Shown here piece by piece: positions 10,053 to 63,141 of a stretch of DNA of 64,000 nucleotides. The stretch covers positions 1,329,410 to 1,393,409 of the forward strand of contig NC_049985.1 of NCBI RefSeq assembly GCF_000003815.2. Reading direction: 5' to 3'. Source of the stretch: Branchiostoma floridae. Lineage: Eukaryota; Chordata; Leptocardii; Amphioxiformes; Branchiostomatidae. The position numbers and the translations under genes were made by a program. Under the pieces are notes generated by a model. It was not told the DNA's origin and ran no database searches. It saw only the letters and a list, made by a program, of their open reading frames with translations. Each line of letters starts with the position of its first letter. Position 1 is the first letter of the stretch.

Positions 10053-13000
10053 ATGGCCTGCTGTTACTATATCTCTCGTAGCGGTGCGTTTGTTGTCTTC
10101 ACAGCGGTGCTGGTCGTTCTCAATCTTACGGGTGGTTCAGGTAAGGATCGAAGGATAAGGCTTTCTCACTGGCTTCAGTGGTGTTTTGGGGGGAGGTTGT
10201 TGGTTGGAGGGAGGCGAGGGTTTGAAAAACGGAGATTAGGTCGGCACTTTTGTACACACACATCGTGCACCAGACCACCAAGTGCAAACACAGCTAACGT
10301 TACACCTTGGATTACCGCCGGTGTAGTCGTATTACACACAGTAATCCAAGAACGTTACTAACTCCAAGAACAGTACAAATCTCAGTACAACTTCCTGATC
10401 TACGAGCGGGTGTCACCATGAGTTGGTGAAAGACGTAGGCCATAGTCTGTCTCCGACAGCACCCATTGCTTGGAGAATGCCGTCACGACTGTCCATTTCA
10501 CGTTGATTTTCAACGACTGTTGGGGGAGCGGGGGGTCGATCGGCACACTTGACCCATTTATGGGTAGCAGGACATTGTGTGGAACTTAAGTAGTCATCTG
10601 TGTTATGTTGTCTGACCCGTACCTGCTCACTATGCCAGGTAGTCTTTTGCACTAAAAATATCTTCAAATTATAGAATCAGTTACAATGATTTTGTATCCG
10701 GTTTTACAAATGCATACGTTGTCCTACCAACACCAAGTAGCTTTCCTGGCCTTTGGTCCTACTGGCGCCGTACATACTGCACATGTAGTGTGTCTAAAAT
10801 CTCCAAGCAGATCCTACTATATTAAAGATACCTGTAGTACCAAACTGGCCAAGGAGTGTAGTCAGCCAAGAGGTGTCCAGTTGCCATGTAGAATCTACCC
10901 CAGTCGGCTAGAACAAAGGCTATTAACACCCGAGATGCATATTGAAGCGCATCGGCACGTTTTCGATGGCTATTCACACAATCACAGCAGTCGTAGAGGA
11001 GTCACACAGGGTCGTATGAAGAGTGTGCAAATGTCGTGTAGGCTCGCAGGAGATATCGAGTAACTTATAAATACCATATTGAGGGGTTCTGACTAAGGCC
11101 ATGTTGATTTGATTATATGGATGGCGTCCTCGGCTGGGAATCCCAAAACTGATGTGAACGTGCGAAGAAAAAAGTTTCTCAATTAACGGCAAATATGTGC
11201 TCATTTTGCAACTATTTATACGATTAAACGTTACAGCAAGGTCAAAAACCTTTTTTTTTATTTGTAGAAACGGACGAAACTTGATGCGCTCGCTAATGTC
11301 ATCCATATAATCAAATCAACATTACCTTATCGTAAATACATAGGCGCTACCTAGGGTATTTTCTAGGCCACGACGTCCCAGGTGAATCAGAGAAACTTAT
11401 CATAACAACTTTTTCGATGTCTTTTTATAAGAGACTGTCCCGATATCGTTACAGTAGACGCCGTTGTTGTCTCCACCACTCATGGCGACGTGAGAGGTTC
11501 AGAGTTCCTGACCTCCTCTTTTGTCGGAAATGCCCACTTTGACCGCGTCTTCACCTTCAAGGGGATTCCTTACGCCGCTCCGCCCGTGGGAGACCTCAGG
11601 TGGGTTTCTCCAAGATGTAGAAAAATACGTGGAAAAAAGGATGACATAACAAAGAAACCAGTATTAGAGATTAACATTTTCCTTCAATGATGAAACGGGG
11701 TGGTTGAATATGGATGAATTTGTTATATAAAATGTACCGTAGCAGGCGAAAAACCACCGCTGCCACCAAATGTGGTGGGAACGAACTTAATGAACGAACG
11801 TTTGAATGGATGAATGAAGTAATTGATTGATGAATTAATGGATGAAAGGTAGATAAATGCATGGCTGTCATAGATTGAGTTTAAGTTAAAAGATATTAAG
11901 TCCTTCTCACACCATGTGATATATAGGGCGGTGCCCATCTCCATTTCCTTAGCCCTTTGGCCACACGGCGATGCAAACGCAGGTAGTGTGTTACTATGTT
12001 AACTAATACTGTAATTCACTTTGTCTTCTCGGTACCAAACTTTCACGCTGTGAGAAAATTTAACTTGTTCTCGGAACTGAATGTTCACTATCGCGGCAAG
12101 TGCACATAAAAATAGTCTGTGAATTATATGTTATCAGTAATGATAAGTTCACGTTACAGTCGTCACAGTGAAAACCGTGAACATAACAGTACATTGAAAA
12201 AAATCAGGAATTACAGTATGTTATCCATACCTTATGAGGGACAAGCAAAGAAGTATGTACCATTCAAGTTGCGTAAGTTGGCAAGTCTAGAGAAAGGATG
12301 AAAATAGAATAAATAGCGAATTCGCTGGTACGTTTCCGTAGTAATCAAATACGCCTTCGCAAAACTTGCATGTTCACGCCTAAGAAAATCTGTTCTGCCT
12401 GTCGTTTCCGCTAGATGGCGTCCTCCGCAAGACCCTAGCAGCTGGACAGGTGTCCGCGACGCCTCGGAGTTCGGAAACAGGTGCCCCCAGATCTTCAACC
12501 CGGACGATGTTCCCCTGATCGACCCGATCTGGGCGGAAACCATCTTCTTTCACAGCAAGGCGGAGGGCGAGGACTGTCTGTTCCTGAACGTGTACACTCC
12601 GAAGGTTGATGCCACTGCCAACCTGCCAGTAAGTACTGTATACATGTAAATGCAGAAACTGTCGCCGTGGTTTAATGTTCGCGGTTTTCGCGGTGGCCGC
12701 TTCACCGCGAACCTAAAACCACCGCGAACATTTTTCCATAGCAGTAAGAGACTACAGTGCAGGGTGCTACCACGAACTTAAAACCACCGCGAAAATTCAT
12801 TTTCCCGCTACCGCGAAATTAGATCCCAACCAAGATTCCCTGACCCTGGTTCAAGTCCCGGGGTCTCCCAGATACAAGCGTATTGGCCTCAGGATCTCAA
12901 CTGTGAGACCGTTACGAGTTGAGCCACAGGAAAACCTCATATCAACACAGTGTATCATACCTATTTCAGGTGATGGTTTGGCTCCATGGCGGCGGGTTGA

Positions 13001-18789: not shown

Positions 18790-21700
18790 ATGGGCCGGCG
18801 TGCAGGTAAAACCTCAGGTGTCGGGGACGTGGTCGTCTTGGCGGCGCTGCTGGGGCTCGCAGGTGGGTTGGACGTGGTTTTGTACATGATTCCAGTGCAT
18901 TTAGCTCCCCAGTGTGGCCTTGTTTTCGTCCATGCAGTGTTCTAACATTCACTTTCGGCCCGGACAACCATTCGTAGGCGCTATTGTGTATGTGTGTGAG
19001 TTTGGGAATGGGAGGGGGGCGATGGAGTAAACCATTCATTCATTCAATTGTTACAAATGATCACCACATTTCAGTGCATTATTGTCCCAATTGCGTTGGA
19101 CATTTACATGTGTTTTCTTATTATGAACGTTTATGGTAGATGGTACAACGCAACCGTTGACCCCGAAGACCCAAATAAGATTCAGAGGGTAGCCCCATTC
19201 ACCCCATTAATAACACGTTATATGTTTGGGGTGTGTCTGGGTGTGCGCATGTAAACATTGTGTCCAAGTGATCCGGATATTTTTCAGCATGACTAAAGAG
19301 CCTGTCATGGATTGTGGTGATGTTTGGTAAGTGGGTAGGTGTCGGAAAAGTTAGACACAAAGGTCAGGGTTGTGGATATAAATATTTGGTACGTAGCCCG
19401 TAGCCAGGATTTGGGTTGGGGGGGGGGGTCATTTTAGCACTTGTGGGACCATCGAGCGGCGCAGGCGAGAGCTGCTTGGGGGTCCGGGGCATGTTCCCCG
19501 GAAAAGTTTGAAATCTTGACCCTCTGAAACGCTATTTCCTGCATTTGCTGGGAAAAATTTGCTGGCCAAGTTTAATGGAATTTCTATAAAAATATACAAG
19601 GCTTTTGGCGTAAGTCTTTGAGGGTGACTCCCCTGGCCTGACATATTTTCATATTGTCTGACACCAAAGACGCGAGGCGTCGTAATGGAGGTCCGGGGAA
19701 ATTTTGAAATCTGGACCCACTGAAACGATATTTCCTGCACTTTCTTTCTGCAAATTTTGCTGATAGATTGGCTTAGATTGAATGAAATGTCTAACAGTGA
19801 AAAATGCAAATCAGTCATGCCTTTCAAAAATAAATCTTGAACATGAAAAAGCGAACCTTCGATCGTGTGTGTGTGTGTGGGGGGGGGGTGGCTTCTGAAC
19901 CCCCAAACCCCCCCATGGCTACGGGCATGAGTGAGTAGTTGTTGTAGACACAATGGCCAGGGTTGATTGAAGTCCTGGCGGCCGACCATGGTACTGCAGC
20001 AATACTGACGGTTTTTGTATCTTTTGTCCCGGACATGCTTTGTTCTTGTTTCATATGTTTCAAACAACTTGGTGATTACGGCTTACAATTGTACCTTGTA
20101 ACCAGGGGTTAGACACGTAGGAATGACTTACTCTAAACGCATATCTACCGGTGACATGCATGAAGTTTGTATGATGAACTTTGATCCAAACTATGACACT
20201 TCTCACCCGTCCAGGCGGAGTTGTGGTCCCCACCACCTATGGAGACGTGAACGGGGTGGAGTTACCGACCTCGTTCATAGGGGGCGCTGTGTTTGACCGG
20301 ATCTACACCTTCAAGGGGATTCCCTACGCCGCTCCGCCTGTGGGGGACCTCAGGTGAGTCTGACACCATGCGTCAAAGAAACACCTCTTTACTTTAGTTT
20401 ATCCATCCGCTTATGCCTATTTAAAGGGGAAGTCGACGAGAGGTGTGAAGTAGTCATCATTCTACTGCCACATTGTCTCTGCTACTGTCTCTGTACTGAT
20501 TGTGTGACTGACATTCCGATTAGGTGACCAAACCAAGTTTTTTATTTATCTATTGATCTTTAGGGTAGTCCCTTCAGTCAACGTAGTAACTGATTTCCAA
20601 GGGAGCCCTATAACAATAATAATAACTCAAAGTACAAAAGATAACTACTAACATAGGATTGAACATAACAAAGCAATAATCCAATTCGGATTTGTAAATT
20701 ATATAAGCAACTTAGGAACACTCAAAAGAATAACAACTCATACTTAATAACAAAAACAACTCAAGATCACAAACTCATAGGGTCATTGGACGGTTATTGC
20801 GGTCAGAGGTCAGATGTCAGTGCCATTTGTCCTGATCAATCGGACCAAGGACCCTCTTCTTGGCAATAAACTTCAGGGCAGGTTTGTTTCCGACCATGTG
20901 TATAAATTACCTGTGATAATGAATAACAAAAAAACGTAATATTTGAAAGCAAATACACCTTCACGTGGTCGAGTCTAACAAGGATTTTAACCTCCTTGAG
21001 TCTGACAAGTTATTGCTCTGTCAATTTGTTCTCAAACACAATCGTGGTATGGTGACGAGCCACTTCGCGTCTACAACACTACATGGTGCCTGACACACCT
21101 GCACAACCATGGTGAAAGACGCCTGGTACAGGTTATTGACCTTATTGTAGGTATGAGAAGAAGAAGAAAAAATTGAACAAAAACAACATGTTTCCCTTCC
21201 ATAACATAACAAACTTCCCGTCTCCCCAGATGGCGCCCTCCCCAGGACCCGGTCGGCTGGACCGGAGTCCGGGACGCCGCCCAGTTCGGAGCCCGGTGCC
21301 CGCAGGTTGTGGAGATGCCTTTTCCGCCAGGTTCGCCTCTGTACGAGCTGTCCGGGCCGTTCCGCAGCAACAGCAGCAGCGAGGACTGCCTGTTCCTGAA
21401 CGTCTATACGCCTAACGTGGCTTCCACTGCGAATCTACCGGTAAATAGACATCAAGACAGTAACAGGGAGAAAAGGAGAGAGAGAGATGCATAGGGAGAG
21501 ATATATGGGACAACAAGAAACTTAGAGAGAAAGAAGGAAAGAGACCAAAAAGAGATAGGAAGAGAGACAGAAAGGCGGAAGGGAGACGGAAAAGTAGAGA
21601 GAGAAAGACAGAAAGAGAGGTAGAGAGATAGAGGGACATACAGGGAGCGAGGTGAGTAGGGAGGGAGAGACAAGGAGAGGGGAAAGGTTAGAGGGAGAGA

Positions 21701-37647: not shown

Positions 37648-39513
37648 CCTGCTCGCGCGCGCGCATGTGCGTTCGTGCTCGCGCGCGCGTGTGTGTGTGC
37701 TGTGCGTGTTTGTGTGTTTTCGTGAACCCCCCGTCCGAGCGGCGTACCTAAACTTTTCTTTTGATGCTTTGATGCTTTATTAGTCCATAAGCTGTAATAC
37801 AAAACTTTAAAAAATTGTACACAGCTTATCTTCCTGGACATAATACATATTTCGTTCCTTTTCGCACTTTCGATAGACCGATTCCGGGTATAGTACGGGA
37901 ACAAGGCGACATGCATGTGAGGCTAGCTAACACAGTACGTTAGAACTGAGATAATGACTCACAGGCAGGTTGGCAGTGTTGGACACTTCTGGAGTGTACA
38001 CGTTCAGGAACAGGCAGTCCTCGCTGCTGGCGTTGGTGCGAGCGAGGAACTCCCGGAAGATGGGGTACGGCTCTGGGGCCATCGCGGCCGGGTCCTGGAT
38101 ACACCTGGAGCCGAACTCTGTGACGTCACGGACACCTGTCCAGCTGGCGGGGTCCTGGGGAGGGCGCCACCTAGCGGTAGGGACGGAATAACAGAGGTGA
38201 AATGATGAGAAAGCAACTTTTTTTTTACATACACGTAGTTAGATGTGGAATGTCCTCCCTGTCATATTTCTGGTGTTTTCCATCATTATCCTGAGCAATG
38301 GCAAGACGCGTCGTCCATTCATCAAATCAATCGTTTATCCATTCGTTCACCCATCCGTCCATCCATCTATGCATGCCTCTATCCATCTATTAATTCTACT
38401 ATCGAACCCTTTCACACACCTATTCATTCATGATTTTTCATTTAGCTACCCCTTTTCTAGAACTACTTCACAGACCCACTTTTCGTAAATTCACTCATTC
38501 ATGTCTATGTCTTTCTTAGTTATCCCTCGTCTTTTTTCAACTCACCTGAGGTCCCCCACAGGCGGAGCGGCGTAAGGAATCCCCTTGAAGGTGAAGACGC
38601 GGTCAAAGACGGCATTTTCGACAACAGAGGAGGTCAGGAACTCTGAACCACTCACGTCGCCATATGTAGTGGAGACAACAGCGGCATCTAATGCAAGTGA
38701 AAGAAAAGATTGTCAAACTTTACAACTCCCAACAAAATTATTTTTCCGTAGAATACTAAGATTATATTTTTTTCTTTGCTAAAGAAAGGTTTTCCCTGCT
38801 CCCGTATCACTTTTGTCGACTTTGTGATGTTACGTGTTTAGAGGTTGATGTATTTCGTGATTTGGTCGCCTGAGCAACGGCTGGCATTTGAACTCTTGAC
38901 CTCTAAGCCCAACGTCGGCGTTTCTTACTCGTACTCCCATAACAAGTACTCTCACAGCCTTCAGTGTTTTAATCAAATAATTTTATTTCACCACCATTTA
39001 CCAAGGTACAAAGTATTGCATCTACATAACTACAGTTCTATAGCTTAACTTAAGGCTTTTCTAACAAATACAGGAGTTGTAGTATGGGATAATTATAAGT
39101 TTCTTACAATCAGTGGAGGCTTTAACAATCATTCGAGGAATTTCTAATGTCTAAACCTTCCTTGATTTATTTTATTATATATGCCATGTAGGGATTGTCA
39201 CATGTCATGATGTATTTGAATTTGCACTTCAGGTCCATTGAGATAAACCCTTGTGTTAATCGACGGTAAGTGAAATATAGCCACGTCGGTGAACTTTGCT
39301 TGTTCACAGACTCTAACTGCTCAGCGGACCAAAATCTGCGTCTGCCTCCAGGACAAAAATGACTAATGGATTACAACTTAAGTAATGTTCGCAGGCTGGA
39401 AATCTGAAAACAATTAACTCACCTGATCTTCCTACAATGACGAAGAAAACCACTGAGAAAGCCACAAACGCACGGAGACCCCCATAACGACCTATCGGTG
39501 AGCAAACAGCCAT
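33188..39513 (-). CDS. Gene E: secreted, probably GPI-anchored type-B carboxylesterase, 590 aa
   Basis: Exons on the - strand: 39513-39423, 38687-38546, 38170-37963, 37336-37157, 36757-36483, 36131-36053, 35527-35375, 34922-34769, 34057-33829, 33449-33188; all GT-AG, sum 1773 nt. Exon 1 is a signal peptide (FVAFSVVFFVIVG). The triad is intact: Ser234 in GQSGG, Glu346 in NNDEF, His457 in ADHGDE; HGGG is on exon 4. Both Cys pairs are kept. Exon 7 is shorter than in the paralogues (51 codons). The C-terminus, after SGGDGG, is hydrophobic and ends YVFA, as in GPI-anchored proteins. A second possible first exon lies 2.4 kb upstream at 41865-41982. Exon 6 is the least conserved exon and is placed by its splice phases and its ending ESPW. 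Confidence 0.88.
35206..35270 (+). repeat. (TG)n microsatellite in intron 7 of gene E
   Basis: Runs of TGTG broken by TATG units. It lies in the intron just upstream of two nearly repeated blocks (ATGGcaTATATTAC...GTCACGTGA) at about 35096-35130 and 35310-35340. Confidence 0.9.
36340..36480 (-). repeat. GTTCGGTGTGTTCGAA minisatellite at the start of intron 5 of gene E
   Basis: Read on the - strand, imperfect 15-17-bp units of the type GTTCGaatGTTCaGTGT begin directly after the exon 5 donor. The motif and its place match the array in gene C intron 5 (13630-13770). Confidence 0.7.
37572..37646 (+). repeat. (GT)n microsatellite in intron 3 of gene E
   Basis: About 37 uninterrupted GT units, followed by a shorter GC/GT-rich stretch to about 37720. 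Poly-Cys/Val and poly-His/Thr frames across it are artefacts. Confidence 0.95.
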
Positions 39514-42454: not shown

Positions 42455-43055
42455 GAAACGGTTTTTGACTAAAACTAAACGGTTTTTGACCAAAGACTAA
42501 AACTAAACGGTTTTGACTAACGACTAAAACTAAACGGTTTTTGACCAAAGACTAAAACTAAACGGTTTTTGACTGAAGACTAAAACTAAACGGTTTTTGA
42601 CTAAAGATTGAAACTAAACAGTTTTTGATTAAAGACTAAAACTAAATGGTTTTTGACTGAAGACTAAAACTAAACAGTTTTTAATTAAAGACTAAAACTA
42701 AATGGTTTTGACTAAAGACTAAAACTAAACGGTTTTTGACTAAAGACTAAAACTAAACGGTTTTTGACTAAAGAATAAAACTAAACGGTTTTTGACTAAA
42801 GACTAAAACTAAACGGTTTTTGACTAAAGACTAAAACTAAACGGTTTTTGACTAAAGAATAAAACAAAACAGTTTTTGACTAAAGACTAAAACTAAACGG
42901 ATTTTGACTAAAGACTAAAACTAAACGGTTTTTGACTAAAGAATAAAACAAAACAGTTTTTGACTAAAGACTAAAACTAAACGGATTTTGACTAAAGACT
43001 AAAACTAAACGGTTTTTGACTAAAGACTAAAACTAAACGGTTTTTGACTCAAGAC
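42455..43055 (+). repeat. 28-bp minisatellite, array 1
   Basis: About 21 units of TAAACGGTTTTTGAC plus TAAAGACTAAAAC, with point variants (CTAAAG/ATAAAA, CAGTTT/CGGATT). The array is followed by a unique ~150-bp block and then by a copy of the last coding bases of gene F. Not a CRISPR: units are contiguous with no unique spacers. Confidence 0.95.
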
Positions 43056-43205
43056 AAAAACGCCTTTGTAGAGAAACTAAAACAAAACTTTACTGAATTC
43101 ACCGCAAAGATAGCCCTGTTGGTACAACATTACACAAGAGGGGTTTTACATGACTAGAAAAATACAATGGTGCTGTCGCCTGTAGTACGACGGTTGTGGC
43201 CAGGA

Positions 43206-43262
43206 CTCAGCTTAATCAGTCCATCAAATACGAAACAACCAAAGTGAACGCCAGAACAAAAA
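43206..43262 (-). pseudogene. Duplicated end of the gene F last exon
   Basis: CCATCAAATACGAAACAAC and AGTGAACGCCAGAACAAAAA match the final coding bases of gene F at 44237-44281. It is a fragment that came with the minisatellite duplication; nothing upstream of the tail is present. Confidence 0.65.
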
Positions 43263-43312
43263 GCAGAAGCAACATAGGAACTTATGTGAGTCGTTCCTGC
43301 TAACAGGTTGAC

Positions 43313-43866
43313 GAAACGGTTTTTGACTTAAGACTAAAACTAAACGGTTTTTGACTAAAGAATAAAACTAAACGGTTTTTGACTAAAGACTAAAACTAAA
43401 CGGTTTTTGACTTAAGACTAAAACTAAACGGTTTTTGACTAAAGAATAAAACTAAACGGTTTTGACTAAAGAATAAAACAAAACGGTTTTTGACTAAAGA
43501 ATAAAACTAAACGGTTTTTGACTAAAGAATAAAACTAAACGGTTTTTGACTAAAGACTAAAACTAAACGGATTTTGACTAAAGAATAAAACTAAACTGTT
43601 TTTGACTAAAGACTAAAACTATACGGATTTTGACTTAAGACTAAAACTAAACGGTTTTTGACTAAAGAATAAAACTAAACGGTTTTTGACTAAAGACTAA
43701 AACTAAACGGATTTTGACTAAAGACTAAAACTAAACGGTTTTTGATTAAAGACTAAAACTAAACGGTTTTTGACTAAAGACTAAAACTAAACGGTTTTTG
43801 ACTAAAGACTAAAACTAAACGGTTTTTGACTAAAGACTAAAACTAAACGGTTTTTGACTCAAGACT
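43313..43866 (+). repeat. 28-bp minisatellite, array 2
   Basis: About 19-20 units of the same 28-mer as array 1. Both arrays have the same left flank (GTCGTTCCTG.TAACAGG..GACGAAACGG) and the same right flank (CGCCTTTGTAGAGAAACTAA to CCAGGACTCAGCTTA). The whole ~800-bp segment is therefore duplicated. Confidence 0.95.
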
Positions 43867-44024
43867 AAAACGCCTTTGTAGAGAAACTAAAAAAAAACTT
43901 TATTGAATTCACCGCAAAGATAGCCCTGTTGGTACAACATTACACAAGAGGGGTTTTACATGACTAGAAAAATACAATGGTGCTGTCGCCTGTAGTACGA
44001 CGGTTGTGGCCAGGACTCAGCTTA

Positions 44025-44234: not shown

Positions 44235-47200
44235 TTAGGCCATCAAATACGAAACAACAAAAGTGAACGCCAGAACAAAAATGCTACACGAAGTCTCGGG
44301 AATCCCGCCGCTTCCGGTGTTTATATCCTTCCCCATCAGCCTCGGCACCTCCTCGTTCCAAAACTTCATGTTGGACTCCCGAATCTTGACGTCAGTAGAT
44401 GACGTCACGGCAAGCTTCAGGTAGGATTGGGATGACGTCATGTAACGTGGCCAGGTCACCAGGTTACGCATGCGTGCTGCTCCGGTGGAGTCGTTTGGAT
44501 CCCTTTGGAAAAAAATAAATACCTCAGGCATCTGTGAAATATCGTCCGTTTTATTACAGTTTATCCATTAAGCAAATAATTTTTTATAACATTAAATATG
44601 TCCAGTTTCTGTCATATTGATTGTTTCATGATCAAGTAATACAAAATCTATAACTGACAGGCAGACAAAAACAACACCTCCCCGTGAATTAGTAGTCTCT
44701 TCCATTGACCCTATGACCTGTCATGTCTGATGCATCCTCACACTCACTTTGTGGTGCCCCATGTTTAAACCTCCTTCCCACTTTCTTCCCACACTACTGA
44801 TAGTATATTCAAAACCCTACAAAAACACAAGAACACAGACATCTAGACATGGAGGCAGAGCTGTATCCACATACCCGTTAGTGGCGAAGTTGACCCAGTA
44901 CGCCATCATGTCCAGACTCAGGTCCCTCTCCTCCTGGGTGTAGCTGTACTTCCAGGAGTTGCCGGTGTCGTCACGCAGGAGCGGGAGGCCGAAAACGAAA
45001 TACAGATCATCAGCGTGGTCAGCTCCCGTGACAAACGCCGGACGGAAATAGGAGAAGACCGACGCTCTGTGCTGCAGCTCGTACTGGTACACTCGACTGG
45101 AGGCTGCGTAGAGAAACAATCAACGTTTTAATATGTCACATATGCACAACTCTACTTTTCTACCGCATAAATAAGAAATAAAACACATGGGGTGATAGAA
45201 GATCGTATATTGTTTAAAAGAGCACAACGGTTAAGGAATGCAAAGGTTAGTGTGACAAGTTCTTCAGTGTAATATAGCCAGCTGCTGCCTTGCGTGCTGG
45301 TATGATACAGTGCAAAGGGTGGCTATACCGCCTATATATTATGGGACCGGTGAGGTGAGGTGATTTATTGTATAGATGCGGATTCAAATATACGAATGAT
45401 ACGGTGTCACAGTTTCTTCCCGTTACCACAGTACCACAAGAACCAGTAAGACTCTCCCACCCTGCCACGCTACTGCCGGCATGCCTGCCTGGGCCTGCGC
45501 CATCATGACTGTCGGTGCGGCGAACCACGCGTCCGTCAGGAGTTGCTTGAACTGGTCACGTCGGTAGATCGGATCGTCCGCCATGTCGGGGTCCAGGTAC
45601 TGGTCTATCGCAGGCTGGAGGATGGTGTCAATGCTGCCGCCCTGTGAAATATATCAAAGGCGAAGGAGTTTCGTAAGGCCTACACATCCTCCTACGCAGG
45701 GACATCCAACAGCCAAACCGCCTGTCTGGATGTACCCTGCTGTTTCAACCATCACCCTTAGTTCCTTACCGCCCTGGTTTTGAAGACTAATGAGCCCACC
45801 TTATATATGCGAGACCTCTTTTGAAAATAGAAAGGCCTATTCTCTGATTGGCTGACAGCTGGTTTGGGGGGACGTCTACAGGAACTAAGGCTGACGGTTG
45901 AGAAACCATGTACTCAAAACAATCAAACACGATCCCTGACAGTAATTCAGGCAGTCAAAGGTGTCTCTTAGGCCTATGTCGCATTTCCAAACCGGGGCCC
46001 GTTCGGGCACTGTTTGGGAACAAAACGTATTATTTAAAAGACAACAAACTACACAAGACATCTGTGCATATTCTTACGTCTACTAGTACATTTCTATTTT
46101 TCGTTTCCACAAAAAAGCGATGGAGGGACCAAGTCACAAAGGACATCGGACAAAGTATCGAGTTCGCGGAGAGAAGTGCGAAGGATCGTGCGGCCTGGAA
46201 ACTGCTAACGGAGGGGGGCAAGGGGCCAGTCCCTGGCCTAGGCACTTAGGCAGGTAGGCAAACAGCCCGGCCGGGTCCCAGTTTGTAAATGTGACGTTAG
46301 ACTTACCAGGTACTGATCGACAGTGTGTTGTAGTTGGTCGGGAAGGTTAGTTTCGAACTCTGCCCGAGTCATCCCGTCTGCGTCTACATACGGGACCTCT
46401 GATGCTAGGGTCGCGAACTCGTCGTTGTTGGAGCCCAGAAGGTAGTCCACCCTGTTGATGAATTTGTTGTTCATCAGATCCTGTGATCAAAACAACGTAG
46501 ATGAGTGTGAATTTTTTCATCCAAAACGCTATAGAAAAAAGTTTACACTGTCCCATCAGAAAGTCGAGATTTTGGCCAATCAAAAAGTTTTCTCGTGAGG
46601 GAAATTAAAGATCAAGACGCATCAACCTTCAACAAACCAGGACGGGGGTCGATACCGACTTCCACTAACCATCACCAATGGAAATGAAAAATGAAGAAGA
46701 AGCTCAAATCGGCATGCAGTCCGCTTTTTATTAAGGTAATAATGGTAGAGGCAAGGGTCACCGTATATGGCAGGGGTACAATGTACATCATTTAGACTTC
46801 TAATGAGTTTTGAAAGTCTATATACCCAATTTTAAAATACATGATACAAAATACATAATAGTCGTTAGAGTTACCACATAATTCGAGTTCGTTCATTTTG
46901 TTCGTTTCCTTTACTTTAAGACTCTCTTAAAGGAAGTTGGGACTGTGCTGATGTCTTGTATAATAGACTGCTCAAGATGCCATTGGTTGAGCAGATGCAC
47001 TTCGCACATGTACCATTACAATTAACAAAGTTCAGCACATGATAAGTGTGCTAGGTAACATTACTTAAGCATCATTCTTACCCACGGACTTTGTAAGAGG
47101 AATCTTCCATCGATGACCACTGGCGGATACAAAAGCGTCACCAAGTACTCACTCGGTAACCTGTCAGAACAAAAGACAGTCTATTTGGTTGAACAATCAA

Positions 47201-50200
47201 TTTGAAGATAAATTATGATAACTTTATTGCACAACAATTGTACGAGGTACAAAATATGACATCTACATAACTATAGTTCTATAGCTTAACTTAAGCCGTA
47301 ATTAACTATAGAACACCCCTCTGAACATACCAATACAGACAAGTCATCATATCATCGTAGGAGTCCGTGCTGCAGTTCAGGCTATGAGCGATGAGTTGTG
47401 TCAGTGTGAGGTCCCACTTCTGTACGACTGGAACTCCCGCCACGCCGCTCTGAGAGATGGCCCGCTGGAACAGTCCCGTTGCCATGGGAGACATGACGAG
47501 CATGGAGACAGACCAGCCTCCAGCTGACTCCCCAAATATGGTGACTTTGTCGGGATCTCCTCCGAAGTTCCGGATATTGCCTCGTACCCACTCCAGGGCC
47601 TTTATCTGTGACAGGACAGTGTAAGGGTCATCAGGCAATTTGAACAGTGACTGGTGACTTCTTGTAATATCCGTAATATTAATAGTTACAAAACACCCCT
47701 CTACTCCAACGTGCATAGCCCAGACAACATCTTAATATTAAGTGGCTCTAGGTCTTAAGCAACAGAACACCGAACTCTGATCCTCTTTGCCCTACCATAA
47801 CCGAGCATCACATATCCACCGTCTCCTCTGTACACTACAAACCCTACCTCAGAATAGATGACTACAGCAGCACCTGAATGTCTACGACTGAGTCTATTTG
47901 AGAAACCTACAAGGCACAACATGGTGTCAGAAGTGGGATTCGAACCCACGCCCCCATTCAGGACAAGTTCTGATCCAATTCCAGATTGAAAATGCTTTGT
48001 GAATCATGAATCGCAGAAACACATGTAGACAGACAGACTACACTCATGGCTTACAGACGGACAGACAAAAACAATACCCCACTCCCTTGTGTCGAAGTGA
48101 TGAAGGGAAAAAAACTTACACCAAACTTATTTTATTGCGAGGATCTAGATGGAATCTAACCTGGTCCAGAAGTCCAAAGTTGCCCGGTGCGTCGTCGTCC
48201 AGGGTCTGCATGAAGCCCAGGATGCCCAGCCTGTAGTTGAGGGTTACCATGACGACGTTATGGAGTGACGTGGGGATCTCAGCCGGGTAGGTGTCCGCAC
48301 TGCCACTATTCCAACCCCCGCCATGGATCCACACCATGACCTAAAACATATGGTATATCAAAGTCTCCGTTGATAAGATACGTTCTGATGGAAGCGATAA
48401 GTGAAATGTCTATATTGAGTTCCAAGGTCACAAAGTTGGTTAGAGCGTCAGTACGTAAGTATATGAACAGGACTGCTTTAAGTGAGGAATAAATGAAGTC
48501 ATCTACATCAGGTCAGATCGTCAGTTCGTTCATATATATACATCTACATCTGGGAAACCAACATTCTCTCAACCAGGACGGGTGCTGATATTGGCTTTCG
48601 ACAGCATTTACCCATCGCTGAGGTCACGTTTCACAGGGATCGAATTAGACAACTGAAGAAGCCCCAAATTCTGGTGAGTGAAACTTTTGAGTTGGAAAAC
48701 AGTCTACAACCTTTCCATAATAGTTCCTTACAAGATGAAATTTTCCCTACCAAAATTTACATTTCATGACTCTCCTCTCCCTTGCATCTGGTAACGTTAA
48801 GTGACAATCTAATTTTAATTTGTAGATGACAATGCACATCAAAAAACTTTAATAGATAGAACAAAGTCTAGGATATCTCACAGGCAGGTTGGCAGTGTCG
48901 GACACGTTTGGAGTGTACACGTTCAGGAACAGGCAGTCCTCGCTACTGGAGTTACTGCGGAAGGGAAAGGCGTCCAAGATCGTCCCAGTCAGGTTGTATT
49001 GAGACAGGTCGAACTCGACCTGTGGACATCTGGAGCCGAACTCTGTGACGTCACGGACACCTGTCCAGCCGGTGTGGTCCTGGGGAGGGCGCCACCTAGC
49101 GGAGAACAGAGGGAATGTTCAGGGCAAAGGTCACTTTTGTACTTGGACTATGGTAAAAGTGGGACTATTAGTAACCGTGTAAATGTAGGTAATGAATGCA
49201 AGAGTGCAGAGTATAGATCACGATAAATTTGGTCTTTTTTTCCTATACCTCTTGTATGTACCAAATTGGCGATGTCGTTATCCTATTCGGCCGAATAGAA
49301 ATTGTTTATACTGAACTTTTTGGACATTTTAACATCTCGGAATACTGGAAGTTGGTATGACCTGGAAAGGCGACAGATGAAATTATGGCAACTTGTATCG
49401 AGTCATCTTATACAGATTTCCCTTATTGTGCTTTTCTCTTCAAATGGCGTTTGTGTGACAAATTCTCTGTAAATTCTGTGGCTGGTTCAATCGCCTAACC
49501 GTTTGGCCAGGCAATGTCAAACTTATGCAGTTCAACGTCAGCATGAAAACTATCAATTATTTCTTTTGTGTTCTTCAACGCGACTGCGGAATAGTAAGTA
49601 TTCGACCCATTTGATCTTTCCTATGTCAACTAGCACCCACCTGAGGTGAGCCACAGGCGGAGCGGCGTAAGGAATCCCTTTGAAGGTGAAGACGCGGTCA
49701 AAGACGGCATTTCCGACAACAGAGGAGGTCAGGAACTCTGAACCGCTCACGTCGCCATGCGTGGTGGTCACAACAGCAGCATCTACTGTAACAATATCGG
49801 GACAGTCTCTTACAAAAAGGCATCGAAAAAAAGTTATCATGGTTAGTTCATCAGATGCTGGTAAGAAAGTAGCCTCGTTGTCACATCTATGTATCTACGA
49901 TTTGTAAAGACCTCTCAATAAAACATGGAATTGACTGGACTTCGCCTTTGTGACTTCGCACCCTTTTCACAATATGGATAGATCTACATTCAACCTCTAT
50001 TTCATACTTCAAGGGGTTTGTCTAGTATATATACTAATATTTTTGAGTTTTCATTCCCTCCTTTATCCTTTCGAAGATCGTTGAAACCCATTGTGAAAAT
50101 CCGGGATAGTCGTTTCTTTGACCGTAACATTAATGTCCTCGCAGTGGGTGCTGCCAAAACTGCGAACTGACGTCTGAAAACGCCACAATTTTAAACCCCC

Positions 50201-51049
50201 AATATCTGCTGCTTGGAGATCAGGATATTTGTAGTAATTTGTACTAATATTTTGCACTGCAAGCCGACTTTACAATTCATGTGAACGCCGGCCGAATTTG
50301 TGGATCGGTCAGAGCTCGCCGAATTTCTACATTGTAAGAGTATCGGCTGTATTTTTTTATCAAACAATCTGCTCCGTCACAAATTGGACGGAGCTCGGTG
50401 TTTCACTCCGAAAAGTTCAAGTAATTATCTTTCTGCTTTTTTGGTACACAACTGACATCACACGAAGGGTTAAGCCCCAACGGACGAGATGTTAAAAGTC
50501 GCCCGAAGCCCCTGCCAGCAATCGTCAAAACGCCGGTCATACTCCGGCCGAAAATGTCCATTTGGAGCTCGCCAACAACTCGGCCGAGCTAAATTCTTGA
50601 TTTGTAAAGGGGGCTTAAAGAAGGCTTTAAATAGCGCCCCAAACTCGACACTAATGGGATATTCCAACGTGTAACGTTAACCTTACGTCACAGTTTATAC
50701 CTGGTGCACGACAAAGGTGCCAGCCTAACCTCTATTTGTCAAACCCTCCCCTCCTCCCCACGCACAACAACGTCCCAAAGCACCACTGAAGTCAAAGGCT
50801 TCCTTATAAACCAAACACCCCACCTGTAAGGGACAAGATCACCACTGTACAGACGAAAAACACACAGAGACCCCGGGAGGCGCAGTACATGCCGGCCATG
50901 TCGTCAGGAATGTTCTTTGGGATAGGACTAACACTAACACGATCTTAGCCCCACCTCAAAACCATATCCTTACCTGAACCACCCGAAATATTTAGAACGA
51001 CGAGCACCGCTGTGAAGACAACAAACCCACTGATGCGACGAGAGGCCAT
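44235..51049 (-). CDS. Gene F: secreted, probably GPI-anchored type-B carboxylesterase with multiple candidate first exons, about 598-601 aa
   Basis: Exons 2-10 on the - strand: 49785-49641, 49095-48882, 48340-48161, 47605-47331, 47160-47082, 46480-46307, 45641-45485, 45103-44875, 44502-44235 (1721 nt). The span is drawn to the first exon at 50974-51049, whose flank matches that of gene C; a nearer one is 50824-50899 and four intact ones lie further up. Exon 4 has HGGG, exon 5 the classic GESAGG nucleophile elbow, exon 7 NNDEF, exon 9 ADHADD. Exons 2 and 3 have the same lengths as in gene C (145, 214 nt). Intron 8 has a GC donor; intron 7 has a donor completed by a MITE. The C-terminus after GSGG is hydrophobic and ends YLMA, as in GPI-anchored proteins. 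Confidence 0.85.
45971..46302. mobile_element. PIF/Harbinger-like MITE abutting the exon 7 donor of gene F
   Basis: Left end GGCCTATGTCGCATTTCC and right end AAATGTGACGTTAGAC are inverted and flanked by TTA (45968-45970 and 46303-46305). The right TTA is part of the gene F splice donor (GGTAA on the - strand). About 332 bp, with an unrelated-looking middle and no transposase. Confidence 0.75.
47925..47980 (-). pseudogene. 3' half of a tRNA (tRNA-Leu-like) in intron 4 of gene F
   Basis: On the - strand GCGTGGGTTCGAATCCCAC forms a perfect T arm with the B-box GGTTCGAATCC. It is followed by TTCTGACACCA, which resembles the acceptor end of metazoan tRNA-Leu; the part before, GAATGGGGGC, fits a long variable arm. 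The 5' half (A box, D arm) is not seen, so it is a fragment or a short retroposed piece. Confidence 0.45.
50270..50640. repeat. Unclassified interspersed repeat between gene F exon 2 and its first exons
   Basis: Shares ordered blocks with 560-720 (GTACACA, TGACATCACA, GCCGAAAATG, GAGCTC, CTTGATTTGTAA). It includes short GAATTTCTACATT / CGGAGCTCGG imperfect repeats. No coding sequence recognised. Confidence 0.4.
50824..50899 (-). CDS. Signal-peptide first exon, array copy a
   Basis: Starts ATG at 50899 and encodes [20 protein letters not shown] then ILSLTG. It ends in phase 1 at ACAG followed by GTGGGG, whereas sister copies run on for GGTGGATCAG before the donor, so this copy uses a donor nine bases earlier. 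It is the copy nearest to gene F exon 2. Confidence 0.65.
50974..51049 (-). CDS. Signal-peptide first exon, array copy b (gene C type)
   Basis: Encodes [20 protein letters not shown] then ISGGSG, ending in phase 1 at a GTAAGG donor. It is closest to gene C exon 1 ([18 protein letters not shown]), and the ~700 bp upstream matches the gene C upstream region in inverted orientation. It is therefore the likely original first exon of gene F. Confidence 0.7.
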
Positions 51050-51962
51050 GTTCAGCTAGAAATGTTCCTTATAAACCAAACACCCCAGCGCCCCCTGAAA
51101 TACTCAATGTCAATCTCTCTGCACGCTACGCTATAGACGCCAGGAAAACAAGTAGTATCGCAATGCTTGTCTGTCACGCTTCACCTGAGCGTTACAAAGG
51201 GAAGGTCAACAACCGACAGGACGTCTAACGCGACCCACATTTATTAAGTTAGACTTCGGCAAAGCTAAATGATCTCCTTTGTTGAAATCTGCATTTTGAT
51301 CAAGTTTCATCAAGTTTGCGTATGGCGACTGTTGCATATTTTCTTACATCCACTGGTACGTTGGAGATGTCAGCCCGGCTACGTTCTGAACTGAATTTGT
51401 GTTACCCTTGAATTTATAATGAAAATTACATGCAAACCATGCAAGAATTACTAAAAAGACAAAAAAAAACGCTCCGCAGCTTCAGTGAATACCCCCTCAA
51501 TTGACACGACTGCAGTTCAGAGGTATATGGCCAAGTACGTTTCTACACATTAAAAATAATGCTAATACATGCAACAGATTACTTCCAAACATCAATGAAG
51601 AATATAGACAATACAGTACTAGGGTGCAACAGATGTGCACTTATGCAGTATGCTTTCTATCTTATTATCTTAGAAAGCTTTTGTGGAATGACATCACGTC
51701 CTAAACAGAACAGTCGTGTATAAGATACAGCGTATACGTAGGTAAACGTCTACAATGACTTGAAACTAACCTGCTATACAAAAGACAAAAGTAGTATGGA
51801 TTGAGAGCGAAGAAATATACTTTCACAGTCTTTGGTTGCATCTCTTTCGGTAAGTGTACGTTTGTTTAAAAGAAGTATGACTGGTCTGAACCTAATCTCG
51901 CGCCGGGACAGATTGTGTCTGGCTTCTAGAAAATTTGTGTGGTGAGGTAAAACCAATCTTAC

Positions 51963-52047
51963 CTGATCCACCTGTAACAGACAAGATCACCGCTGTACAG
52001 ACGAGAAACACACAGAGACCCCGGGAGGCACAGCACATGCCGGCCAT
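51963..52047 (-). CDS. Signal-peptide first exon, array copy c
   Basis: 85 nt: [20 protein letters not shown] then ILSVTGGSG, phase-1 GTAAGA donor. Its upstream block is nearly identical to that of copy d and carries a TGACGTAA site 82 bp before the ATG. Confidence 0.7.
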
Positions 52048-52128
52048 GTCGTCAGGAATGTTCTTTGGGACAGGACTAAAACTAACACGACCTATGTTTC
52101 ATTTAATAACTGTGGCTGTTTCTTTCCA

Positions 52129-52136
52129 TTACGTCA
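52129..52136 (-). promoter_or_regulatory. CRE/ATF-like site upstream of copy c
   Basis: TGACGTAA on the - strand, 82 bp before the copy c ATG. The same site occurs at 52689-52696 (copy d, 82 bp), 54620-54627 (copy g, 81 bp) and 63216-63223 (gene G, 75 bp). The conserved spacing supports a promoter element; the bound factor is inference. Confidence 0.5.
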
Positions 52137-52522
52137 AGATTGTTCACAGATTACCAAGTAACGATTGAAGGGTTGTGAGTCAGAAACACGGGACTGTCGA
52201 CAAACGATACTCCCTTACACGTCTACTTGCAGATCCTTTACCATTCATCCTTAAGACGTAAATGACCTGATGACGTCAATGACCTCATGATCTCAGTGGA
52301 AAGCAGCCTCCAGGCCGATTTGAAATATGAATAAACAAAGGTTCAAACAAACAAAAACTTTAGTCACTGGCGTATAATGTTCTCGAGAACACGCCGTATC
52401 AAGTCTAAAGGAATCATGACAAGATTTAGCCTGCTACAGTCGGCACAGATTGTGTCGTCTGGCTTGTATGGAGTACTAGTAACAGGTGAAGTTATGTACT
52501 GAAGAAGTAAAACCAACCTTAC

Positions 52523-52607
52523 CTGATCCACCTGTAAGAGACAAGATCACCGCTGTACAGACCAGAAACGCACAGAGACCACGGGAGGCGCAGTACATGC
52601 CGGCCAT
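52523..52607 (-). CDS. Signal-peptide first exon, array copy d
   Basis: 85 nt: [20 protein letters not shown] then ILSLTGGSG, phase-1 GTAAGG donor. It lies 560 bp from copy c and shares about 170 bp of upstream sequence with it at near identity, which indicates a recent duplication of promoter plus exon. Confidence 0.7.
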
Positions 52608-52688
52608 GTCGTCAGGAATGTTCTTTGGGACAGAACTAAAACTAACACGACCTATGCCTCATTTAATAACTGTGGCTGTTTCTTTCCA

Positions 52689-52696
52689 TTACGTCA
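52689..52696 (-). promoter_or_regulatory. CRE/ATF-like site upstream of copy d
   Basis: TGACGTAA, 82 bp before the copy d ATG, in the block shared with copy c. Confidence 0.5.
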
Positions 52697-52905
52697 AGAT
52701 TGTTCACAGATTACCAAGTAACGATTGAAGGGTTGTGAATCAGAAACACGGGACTGTCGACAAACACGAGAACACGCCACGTTGGGTCAAAAGGAATAAT
52801 GACAGGATTTAGCCTGCTACAGTCGGCACAGATTGTGCCGTCTGGCTTGTATGTAGTACTAGTAACAGGTGAAGTTATGTACTGAAGAAGTAAACACAAC
52901 CTCAC

Positions 52906-52990
52906 CTGATCCACTTGTAAGAGTCAAGACCACCGCTGTACAGACGAAAAACACACAGAGACCCCGGGAGGCACAGTACATGTCGGCCAT
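52906..52990 (-). CDS. Signal-peptide first exon, array copy e
   Basis: 85 nt: [20 protein letters not shown] then VLTLTSGSG, with a phase-1 GTGAGG donor. Its upstream block has diverged and lacks the TGACGTAA site. Confidence 0.65.
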
Positions 52991-53307
52991 GTCGTCAGGA
53001 ATGTTCTTTGAGATAGGACTAGCACACCCTTTGCCCCACCTAACAATTTCGGCTGATTATTTGTGTGACAGAGCCTTGCCTCTTCCCTAACTACCTCAAT
53101 CGCGATCGCGTGAGAAATATCTGTGCCGATCCTTGGTCTGCCGGGACGTCAGAGGTGGCATGCCGCGGCGACAATAGTGCATGGGCGCGGCCTATTCACA
53201 CCGCGATGGGCATCTAATCCTACCAACCGGACCACCGTGGACCTCAATGGAAAGCAGCCTGCAGGCCAATTTGAAGAATGACTAGACAAAGGTTCAGACT
53301 AAACCAC

Positions 53308-53385
53308 CTGTAAGAGACAAGATCACCACTGTACAGGCGAAAAAAACGCACAGAGACCCCGGGAGGTACAGAACATGCCGGCCAT
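53308..53385 (-). pseudogene. Signal-peptide first exon, array copy f (broken)
   Basis: The exon resembles copy a but has seven T where copy a has five, which shifts the frame after residue 15 and brings a TGA within a few codons. At 78 nt it also ends in the wrong phase for exon 2. Confidence 0.65.
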
Positions 53386-53727
53386 GTTGTCGGGAATGTT
53401 ATTTGGGACAGGAATAATACTTACAGGACTTTTTTCCCACTTCATAGCTGTGACTGTTTCTTTGTGTACCAGAGCTTTGCCTCTTCCCTCATCACCTCAA
53501 TGAGAAGCGACCCGCAGGACGATTTGAGCTTTTATGAATAAACAATTGCTTCTAACAAACAAAAACGTTATTTACTGAGTCAGACGTATAATGTTCTCGA
53601 GAACACGCCACACCCCAGTCTTTTCTGTTTTCCGATTGTCAAGTAACGGTTGAAGGGTTGTGAGACAGAAATACGGGACTGTCAACAAACGATATTCCAC
53701 ACAACATCTGCTTGCATATTCTTGATA

Positions 53728-54180
53728 CCCCCCTCACATTAGGCGCGATTCGATCGGACGACGAGTCTGCGAGCTCTAAATTACGAGGAGTCATGACGCT
53801 GACGGGAAGGGGGAACTCTGCCATTTCGTCGGCTCTGGGGGGTAAAAAAACTTGACCTTCTCTACCGAACCAATGCACAGNNNNNNNNNNNNNNNNNNNN
53901 NNNNNNNNNNNNNNNNNNNNNNNNNNNNNNNNNNNNNNNNNNNNNNNNNNNNNNNNNNNNNNNNNNNNNNNNNNNNNNNNCGTGATAAAGAATGTTCATA
54001 TCACTCGACTTAAGTGCCATGAGCTCGGTTCCTGTTTTTAATAGCTTAAATTGAGGTGAAGTCATCACCCTGTCGTGAAGGGGTAATTTGGCCATTTCGT
54101 CGGCATCAGGGTCATGCCTCCTTGTAATTTAGAGCTCGCAGACTCGTCGTCCGATCGAATCGCGCCTAATGTGAGGGGGG
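53728..54180. mobile_element. Long-hairpin MITE spanning the assembly gap
   Basis: The left arm CCCCCCTCACATTAGGCGCG... (53728 to about 53790) and the right arm ending CGCGCCTAATGTGAGGGGGG (about 54115-54180) are inverted copies over roughly 55-60 bases, with TA on each side. The gap of 100 N lies in the middle. Such arms can fold strongly, which may explain why the assembly breaks here. Confidence 0.75.
53881..53980. other. Assembly gap (100 N)
   Basis: A run of exactly 100 N, usually a placeholder of unknown true size. It falls inside the hairpin element and within the first-exon array, so the real number of first exons could be larger. Confidence 0.99.
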
Positions 54181-54454
54181 TATTACCATTCATCCTCAAG
54201 ACCTCAATGAACTCATGACCTCAATGAAAAGCGACCTGCATGCCGATTTGAGCTTTTGTGAACAAATAAACAAACAAACAAAGGTTCTAACAACCAAAAA
54301 CGGTAGTTACTGGCGTATAATGTTCACGCCAGTATAAACGCCACGTGAAGTTTAAATGAATCATGACTGGTCTAATATCGTCGGGACAGATTGCGTCGTG
54401 CTTCTAGAGAGTAACAGGTGAAGTTATGTGCTGAAGAAGTAAAATCAACCTTAC

Positions 54455-54539
54455 CTGATCCACCTGTAAGAGACAAGATCACCGCTGTACAGACCAGAAA
54501 CACACAGAGACCCCGGGAGGCACAGTACATGCCGGCCAT
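54455..54539 (-). CDS. Signal-peptide first exon, array copy g
   Basis: 85 nt: [20 protein letters not shown] then ILSLTGGSG, phase-1 GTAAGG donor. It has a TGACGTAA site 81 bp before the ATG (54620-54627). It is the copy farthest from gene F exon 2 (4.7 kb). Confidence 0.7.
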
Positions 54540-54619: not shown

Positions 54620-54627
54620 TTACGTCA
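54620..54627 (-). promoter_or_regulatory. CRE/ATF-like site upstream of copy g
   Basis: TGACGTAA within GTACATGACGTAATGCAAA, 81 bp before the ATG. The neighbouring GTACATGACGTAA matches the gene G upstream site at 63216-63228. Confidence 0.5.
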
Positions 54628-61283: not shown

Positions 61284-63141
61284 GAATTAGCTAACTTCAC
61301 ACCGTCACGTTCATATATTGTCTCTAGTATGCAAACATAGATCGATATGTAAAAATTCATTCAGTTCGATCATCTGGCTAAAACATTCTCAAGCCTCACG
61401 AACATGCACATTTCGAGAGTCTAAATTTGTAGATGCATCAATGCACAGCAACAAACTTTAATCAACATAACAAAGTCTAGGATATCTCACAGGCAGGTTG
61501 GCAGTAGCGGACACGTTTGGAGAGTACACATTCAGGAACAGGCAGTCCTCGCTGCTGGAGTTACTGCGAAACAGAAAGACCTCGTTGAAGATCGATCGTG
61601 ACAGCAGGTATTCGACCTGTGGACATCTGGAGCCGAACTCTGTGACGTCACGGACACCTGTCCAGCTGGCGGGATCCTGGGGAGGGCGCCACCTAGCGGA
61701 GAACAGAAGGGATGTTCAGATCAATGGTCATTATTTTTCCGGGCACAGCTTCTGTGAGACTTTAAGAAACTGTAAAAATGCACTTGACATATATTTCATG
61801 AATGGGACAGTGTGGGTATAAATTTCGATTTCAAAAGATCTGGCCCATTTCTCTTTCTACCCTTATATGAAGTAGTCAATTCCTAGCATGGCTTAATTGG
61901 AATCAAAATGGAGTTTTTTTTTAATTGGTGGCGTCGTTGTCCTGTTCCGCTGTATAGAAGTTGTTTATATTGAACGCTTTGGACACTTTGCATATTGGAA
62001 TACTGTGTGGTTGAGTTGGTATGACCTGGAATGTCGGCAGATGATATTATGACACCCTGTATTTAGTCATCTATATAGAACATTTCCCTTATTGTGCTTT
62101 GCCCTTCAACGTCTGTTAGGCCACTACTTACTATATTCTGTATCCCAGATACTGGCTCAATCACTTAACCATATTGGTAACGCGATGTCAAAACGTGTGC
62201 ACTTCAACTTCATCATGAAAACTGTCAATTATTCATTTTGTTTGTTTCCTTTGTATTTTTCATTGAGACTGTGGAATTACAATCCTAAGTATTTTACCCT
62301 TTTGTTCTTTCCTACGTCAGCTTAGCACCCACCTGAGGTCCCCCACAGGCGGAGCGGCGTAAGGAATCCCCTTGAATGTGAAGACGCGGTCAAAGACGGC
62401 ATTTCCGACAACAGAGGAGGTCAGGAACTCTGAACCTCTCACGTCGCCATGAGTAGTGGAGACAACAGCGGCGTCTGGAATTCAAATCGGTCAATATCAT
62501 CACAACTTTTCGTCAAAAGGATATCTGGTATCACCGATCATTCGTCAACAAATTATGTTTCCCTCTTAACATTAGGTGTGATGATTCAAATTCCTCCCTT
62601 TTCTTCACTGAAAAAATGGACGATTCTGAAAATTAAAAGGAAAGTCTATGAAGCTTCGTTTTCCAAGACTTCCAAGCTTTTCCAGCTGACTCTGTCTGTC
62701 TTGCTTGTAGAGACAGGCAAATGTGTCTGTTGCAGAAGTAAACCTTCTTTCCAGGCAGATTTACCAGCGGTATAAGTTAGTATCAAAGCTGGCAAAGGAG
62801 TGCACTGTTGGCAAAAGGAGTCATCACTTATTCAGCCACTGATGGCATATAGTAGTATCAAAGCTGGCTAGCTGTCTAAAAGGAGTCATCAGCCACTGGT
62901 GGCATAAGATAGTATCAATGCTGGCTGAAGAGTACAGCTGGCCAAAGGGAGTCACCAGCCACTGGTAGCGAAACACGCTACTGGGCCGACGTCATTCCTC
63001 TGACAGCTTTTGATGCTATCTCATGCTACCGTAGGATCTGCTTGGAGATTAAAGTAAAGCCACCCCACCTGATCCGCCTGTAAGAACCAGGATCATTGCT
63101 ATACAGACGACAAGCACGCGGAGACCCCGAGAGCTAGCCAT
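55792..63141 (-). CDS. Gene G: secreted, probably GPI-anchored type-B carboxylesterase, 596 aa
   Basis: Exons on the - strand: 63141-63069, 62474-62333, 61692-61491, 60686-60507, 60247-59973, 59322-59244, 58837-58664, 57445-57289, 56694-56472, 56077-55792; sum 1791 nt. Exon 1 is a signal peptide (LRVLVVCIAMILVLTGGSG). The triad is Ser226 in GESAGG, Glu338 in NNDEF and His455 in DHGDD, with HGGG on exon 4. Both Cys pairs are present. All introns are GT-AG except intron 8, which starts GC. Intron 7 carries a decayed second copy of the start of exon 8 (about 57766-57850). The tail after SSGG is hydrophobic and ends YLFA, fitting a GPI signal. It is the closest relative of gene F by exons 5-10. 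Confidence 0.88.
57766..57850 (-). pseudogene. Relic copy of exon 8 in intron 7 of gene G
   Basis: On the + strand 'CTGGTGCATCACATGCTGGA' ... 'TCAGCACTaGCTGC' ... 'GAATATATCAcAGGCGAAGG' lines up with the exon 8 start and the adjoining intron of gene F (CTGGTCTATCGCAGGCTGGA ... GAAATATATCAAAGGCGAAG). The frame is lost. It is a leftover of a partial duplication. Confidence 0.55.
61235..61284 (+). repeat. (CT)n(CA)n microsatellite in intron 3 of gene G
   Basis: About 17 CT units followed by six CA units. Confidence 0.95.
62775..63055. mobile_element. Foldback/MITE-like element in intron 1 of gene G
   Basis: Several copies of GGCATAaGATAGTATCAA.GCTGGC alternate with GGAGTCATCAGCCACTGGTG, and the right end reads GGATCTGCTTGGAGATTA. 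This end and the inner TTTTGATACTATCTTATGCT-type arm match the element at 6316-6457. Confidence 0.6.

Follow-up and report, generated by a model that had tools for sequence, protein, structure and literature searches.

Why does a single gene stand behind a row of copies of its own first exon, and are these copies used? The question is raised by gene F, a carboxylesterase-family gene of the amphioxus Branchiostoma floridae, which lies on the minus strand of a stretch of 64,000 nucleotides (nt) of contig NC_049985.1 (C7 for short), the whole of which was analysed and is called the window in the following. Variable-first-exon arrays, UGT1 among others, are long established. By analogy with such loci, an earlier note on this DNA had proposed that seven tandem copies of exon 1, each encoding a signal peptide, could feed one esterase from promoters of their own. 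Our analysis retains the array, and favours another view of its use: judging from sequence comparison, we put it at slightly better than even that one or two of the first exons are used and that the other copies are by-products of recombination. We prefer this to a real multi-promoter locus, which we hold to be rather doubtful.

The first-exon array of gene F

BLAST, repeat analysis and a profile search agree on seven exon-1-like copies, F1 to F7, upstream of exon 2 of gene F (Table 1). F6 is of the same type as the first exon of gene B (type I), and the others are of type II. With an exon-1 profile built from the seven copies and their paralogs, E-values ranged from 2.9e-28 to 3.3e-15; a single-sequence BLAST search with F1 returned five of the other six copies with E-values between 1.7e-39 and 6.4e-26, and F6 with no better than 0.001. 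A chance origin of the seven matches is excluded. A tblastn search at E-values up to 1 detected no exons 2-10 of gene F in the interval between its exon 2 (49783) and gene G, the preceding gene, whose last exon lies from 55846 up. The extra copies lie in what is now a 4.7-kilobase (kb) first intron. Tandem first exons before common exons, with none of the latter in between, are one mark of a variable-first-exon locus, and this arrangement is the one found here.

Six of the seven copies (F1, F3, F4, F5, F6 and F7) are in frame and carry a phase-1 donor, at 54455, 52906, 52523, 51963, 50974 and 50824, respectively. Their donor phase is compatible with the common acceptor, and only F2 fails in this regard. 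In these respects the earlier description, with its six donors and signal-peptide first exons for one gene, was fully borne out. The donor 9-mers of the copies were also seen at the first exons of paralogs with a single one, except in the case of F5, whose donor is near consensus. In F7 the original donor was replaced, and the remaining CAG|GTGGGG is the same 9-mer as the donor of gene G. The junction between the last base of exon 1 and exon 2 is in phase 1 and the leader would be cut off, so that the choice of first exon should leave the mature enzyme unchanged, as had been anticipated. Regarding the acceptor, the previously given position 49785 stands as one in-frame option, although the paralogs G and D use the position corresponding to 49782. 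The NAGNAG tandem acceptor of gene F covers 49782-49787; both options are in frame and lie one valine apart.

Splice-site matrices derived from exons of this cluster are biased by the relatedness of the sites and were set aside in favour of the donor strings; even the first-exon donors of genes B, N, M and G ranked low in them. Acceptor-like sites inside the first exons might permit serial splicing; in the same biased matrix, 54463 in F1 scored well and the main site poorly.

The sister genes were scanned for an ATG, a hydrophobic leader and a phase-1 donor upstream of exon 2; the scan covered 13 genes (one gene at the left edge was left out) and counted exons, not alternative donors or start codons. 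It returned six intact first exons in gene F, one in 11 of the 12 other genes and none in gene I. Gene D has an additional broken first exon at 41945-41865, approximately 2.4 kb upstream of its intact one, with an in-frame stop and the phase lost. Genes A, C and J (2170-2242, 18790-18862 and C7:1412706-1412778) share an identical 24-residue leader, a third first-exon class of the cluster.

Table 1. Coordinates of the features discussed, in window positions unless marked C7; for F1 to F7 the higher coordinate is that of the ATG.
Feature	Positions	Strand	Remarks
Window	C7:1329410-1393409		Part of a carboxylesterase-family gene cluster
F1	54455..54539	minus	Type II first exon, intact
TGACGTAA upstream of F1	54620..54627	minus
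F2	53308..53385	minus	Type II copy, frameshifted, usual donor lost
F3	52906..52990	minus	Type II first exon, intact, without TGACGTAA
F4	52523..52607	minus	Type II first exon, intact, TGACGTAA at 52696
F5	51963..52047	minus	Type II first exon, intact, TGACGTAA at 52136
F6	50974..51049	minus	Type I first exon, intact
F7	50824..50899	minus	Type II first exon
Remnant unit without exon, between F1 and F2	53487..53723	minus	Promoter side 53723-53626, then almost directly the post-exon spacer 53609-53487
B-like segment	50711..51865	minus	Colinear with B 8863-10253: distal and proximal upstream region, exon 1 of type I (F6), beginning of intron 1; sharp borders, interrupted by the F7 patch
F7 patch	50795..50965	minus	About 171 nt, contains F7, replaces about 21 nt of B-like intron
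Dispersed element	53725..54183	minus	Inverted terminal repeats of 78 nt, 96% complementary; the 100-N gap (53881-53980) lies within
Gene F exon 2	49641..49785	minus	NAGNAG acceptor (49785 or 49782)
Gene F exons 3-10	44235..49094	minus	Carboxylesterase body; motifs GESAGG, GSNNDEF and GADHADDL, hydrophobic C-terminal tail
Gene G single first exon	63069..63141	minus	Comparison
Gene D single intact first exon	39423..39513	minus	Comparison
Gene B single first exon	10053..10140	plus	Type I (class of F6); comparison

Composition and origin of the array

By its alignments, the array is a composite and not a row of seven equal promoter-exon units. The sister gene N lies beyond the window, with its only first exon at C7:1429087, and runs colinear with gene F. 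The colinearity starts just after the stop of the preceding gene (F 55161-54338, 889 alignment columns, 69.9% identity) and resumes at the acceptor and exon 2 (F 49810-49640, 88.3%). Because gene N, with its one first exon, is colinear at F1, F1 is taken as the positional counterpart of the single exon of N and as the putative ancestral first exon. In the alignment, F2 to F5 are partial tandem copies of the F1 unit with ragged borders.

The first-exon copies are mosaic. Over 262 nt that include the exon, the units of F4 and F5 share 95% identity; 146 of the 150 nearest aligned upstream sites agree between them, yet only 79 of the 85 exon sites do. The exons of F1 and F4 differ at 3 of 85 positions, and one 30-nt upstream bin of this pair matches at only 19 of 30. 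The common upstream or 3' part is missing in three of the seven copies (F2, F3 and F7). A tree of exon 1 plus 65 nt supported F4 with F5 (92) and B with F6 (100), with 13-63 at the other nodes and no firm order of the type II copies.

F6 is of another origin. Promoter, exon 1 and the start of intron 1 at 51865-50711 come from a different paralog class (B) than the gene body, and the old head, F1, was kept too. A 185-nt query of the F6 upstream region and exon matched only F6 and B in the whole genome (an assembly of 513,431,437 bases in 431 contigs). At the end of the F7 patch, 23 nt (50822-50800) repeat the F6 core promoter (51087-51065) exactly, which would fit templated repair.

A mobile element carrying the first exon was ruled out, as all nine genome matches of the type II exon lie inside this cluster.

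Altogether, exon copies are found without the rest of the gene, with ragged borders and with signs of decay, i.e. the broken F2, one unit that lacks the exon and the F7 patch. We propose that the 5' end of gene F was rebuilt by repeated partial duplication and by exchange between sister genes. Transcription would then start mainly from one or two first exons spliced to exon 2, most likely F6 and/or F1, with F4 and F5 as the next-best candidates. The remaining copies would be recombination by-products that are tolerated inside the first intron, because a first exon without an acceptor that lies in an intron is skipped. The broken extra first exon of gene D also counts for this reading.

Are the copies used?

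The main competitor of the by-product reading is a working variable-first-exon locus. In such a locus, first exons with promoters of their own would each be spliced to the shared exon 2, which would give several expression programmes from two promoter classes. We regard this as possible, with a rather low probability. The number of intact phase-1 exons in gene F, set against one or none in the sister genes, speaks for it, and so do the donor 9-mers shared with single-exon paralogs. The upstream regions and the exons themselves have points on both sides.

Regarding the upstream regions, TGACGTAA occurs five times in the window, each time on the minus strand: at F1, F4 and F5, at the matching place of gene G and in an intron of F (50690). 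It is at the same place in gene H as well, and genes N, M, K and D carry variants. This common position in F1, F4, F5, G and H would be expected of real promoters. In the array, the block lies 81-82 base pairs before the ATG in three of the seven copies (F1, F4 and F5), and none was found upstream of F2, F3, F6 and F7. Contrary to the earlier proposal, promoter and exon are thus not a unit shared by all copies; F6 has the promoter class of gene B. F1, F4 and F5 have a common upstream block and F6 a separate B-like one; in F2, F3 and F7 the upstream region is absent or truncated. Only about 70 base pairs separate the F6 donor from the ATG of F7, which has no promoter of its own, a point against a promoter for each exon. 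The TGACGTAA at 50690, in intron 1 of F, is missing from the matching stretch of gene B.

A second element, AAAGGTC(G/A)TGT at -41 to -51, is present in all six type II paralogs (N, H, M, G, K and D). This block is 97% identical among them versus 54% in the remaining aligned upstream region, and the clustering of invariant columns has a P of 0.0002. It resembles what we take to be an NGFI-B-type nuclear-receptor half-site. In gene F the element is altered in all six type II copies, which argues against their use as promoters. Mismatches amount to 1 of 66 in the paralogs versus 8 of 44 in the four F lineages (Fisher test, p 0.0027, counting F1=F3 and F4=F5 once each). The broken extra first exon of gene D is also without the element.

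Mismatches were also counted at 46 other conserved upstream columns. The F copies have 4 (F1), 8 (F4), 9 (F5), 11 (F3), 17 (F2) and 17 (F7) of them, and the paralogs 7 (N), 6 (K), 14 (D), 1 (G), 0 (H) and 0 (M). Judged by their upstream sequence, F1, F4, F5 and F6 remain plausible promoter candidates, and F2, F3 and F7 are much less plausible ones.

The intact frames and substitution patterns did not reveal selection on the copies. Among the first 75 nt of the five intact type II copies there are 12 distinct changes, 8 nonsynonymous and 4 synonymous, few in number and not different from neutral expectation (p 0.40-0.47). In a neutral simulation with 3 substitutions in each copy, which is the mean observed here, at least five of six frames stayed intact with a probability of 0.16-0.46, depending on the indel rate; at 6 substitutions per copy this was 0.02-0.14, and over all settings (2-6) it was 0.02-0.68. 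Because the survival of at least five of six frames is not surprising under neutrality at the observed divergence, the open frames prove little about function. Six nonsynonymous changes fall in codons 11-25, and every one of them leaves the core hydrophobic, which counts for a working locus, although the chance probability of this is 0.11. The closer similarity of F4 and F5 upstream than in the exon argues against strong constraint on the exon alone, in a comparison of exon and flank identity that is confounded by the mosaic structure.

Several observations weigh against by-products. With its 4 mismatches in the 46 columns, F1 is no worse than N or K. Directly before the ATG, 24 columns are nearly constant in all six type II copies, with 0-3 mismatches relative to N. 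Five of the six type II copies and F6 are still in frame with usable donors. It is important to add that the AAAGGTC(G/A)TGT element was picked after the alignment had been inspected.

Two further explanations concern the origin of the copies. The F6 segment and the type II units could be heads of whole sister genes that were deleted, with the first exons left behind and multiplied afterwards. This would suit F6, which, with its upstream region and intron start, looks like the head of a B-type gene, and the broken extra first exon upstream of D; it is improbable, since no remnant of exons 2-10 was detected between the copies at E-values up to 1 and F1 is colinear with N as the own first exon of F. 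An assembly artefact, in which alternative haplotypes or collapsed repeats were placed one after the other close to the gap, is the least probable of all: the gap inside the array and the 95% identity of the F4 and F5 units, which falls within possible allelic divergence in such animals, would fit it, but most copies diverge more and have distinct breakpoints, segments of the two types differ clearly, and the inverted-repeat element around the gap is a dispersed one with smoothly joining flanks.

The flanks of this element are contiguous in the F4-F5 spacer. For its arm, 63 genome matches were listed, with 40 of 1496 first-look candidates scored. The assembly gap lies in the loop of the element. 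The gap had been placed correctly inside the array; since it is within a dispersed element, it need not hide the further copies that had been suspected. The arm is near-identical at many places in the genome, and paired arms elsewhere are often about 190 nt from end to end, which suggests a short palindromic mobile element.

The gene cluster and the body of gene F

By exon homology, the window holds the esterase genes A, B and C on the plus strand and D, F and G on the minus strand. At least eight further esterase genes lie in the flanks, two in 10 kb to the left and six (H, I, J, K, M and N) in 50 kb to the right. The joined exons 2-7 of gene F match the PF00135 (COesterase) profile with 330.6 bits (gathering cutoff 27), and the best sequence match in PDB is the mammalian carboxylesterase Ces2e. 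The serine, acid and histidine motifs, judged by eye, are present in gene F and presumably have their catalytic roles.

The esterases of the cluster are probably secreted or membrane-tethered. The last exon of gene F encodes a hydrophobic C-terminal tail (44235-44312), with counterparts in G and D, whose sequence suggests a glycosylphosphatidylinositol-anchor signal.

The body of gene F is closest to G and N (identity at four-fold sites 0.86 each; B 0.68). Exon 2 (49640-49784 in F) is approximately 90-96% nucleotide-identical among F, B, D and G, and other exons mostly diverge more; the similarity of exon 2 hints at gene conversion. A 28-nt unit is repeated about 50 times in a minisatellite at 42467-43871, between genes F and D.

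Relation to known systems and significance

Extra lone exons are a feature of fast-duplicating cytochrome P450 gene clusters. Gene F is alike in having extra lone exons in a fast-duplicating cluster, and differs in that, with F1 left aside, five of its six extra copies are in frame and could be spliced to exon 2, the exception being F2. The P450 exons have been termed "detritus exons" (PMC4365919). A hybrid head is known from the same esterase family: in PMC9778508, human CES1A2 is described as a hybrid of CES1 and CES1P1, with promoter, exon 1 and the first part of intron 1 from a sister gene and most of the coding sequence from another. The B-like segment around F6 is of the same extent. However, in CES1A2 the head was replaced, whereas in gene F a foreign head was added beside the old one, which was also multiplied. 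Homologous first exons in tandem before one shared exon set, with birth-and-death evolution, are the likeness to UGT1 and other multiple-variable-first-exon clusters (PMC1885805). The variable exons of UGT1 encode a signal peptide and an aglycone-recognition domain and are spliced into mRNAs, whereas those of F encode the leader only and are known from DNA. Gene F combines a CES1A2-type hybrid head with detritus exons, and could become a UGT1-type cluster. Judged by titles and the beginnings of abstracts, no paper was found that treats this locus or the first exons of amphioxus esterases.

In conclusion, gene F may be a young variable-first-exon locus in the making, which multiplied its own leader and acquired promoter and leader from one of its sister genes, although we think this unlikely. 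If true, one mature and probably membrane-tethered esterase would be made from two promoter classes with up to six leaders, and the change would be limited to when and where the esterase is made. If instead the copies are unused, the locus is a clear example of debris from partial duplication whose frames are open simply because it is young, which calls for caution in gene annotation. With the unexpanded counterpart N, the class B of the captured head and ten more esterase genes that can be scanned, this cluster would show how such an array starts.

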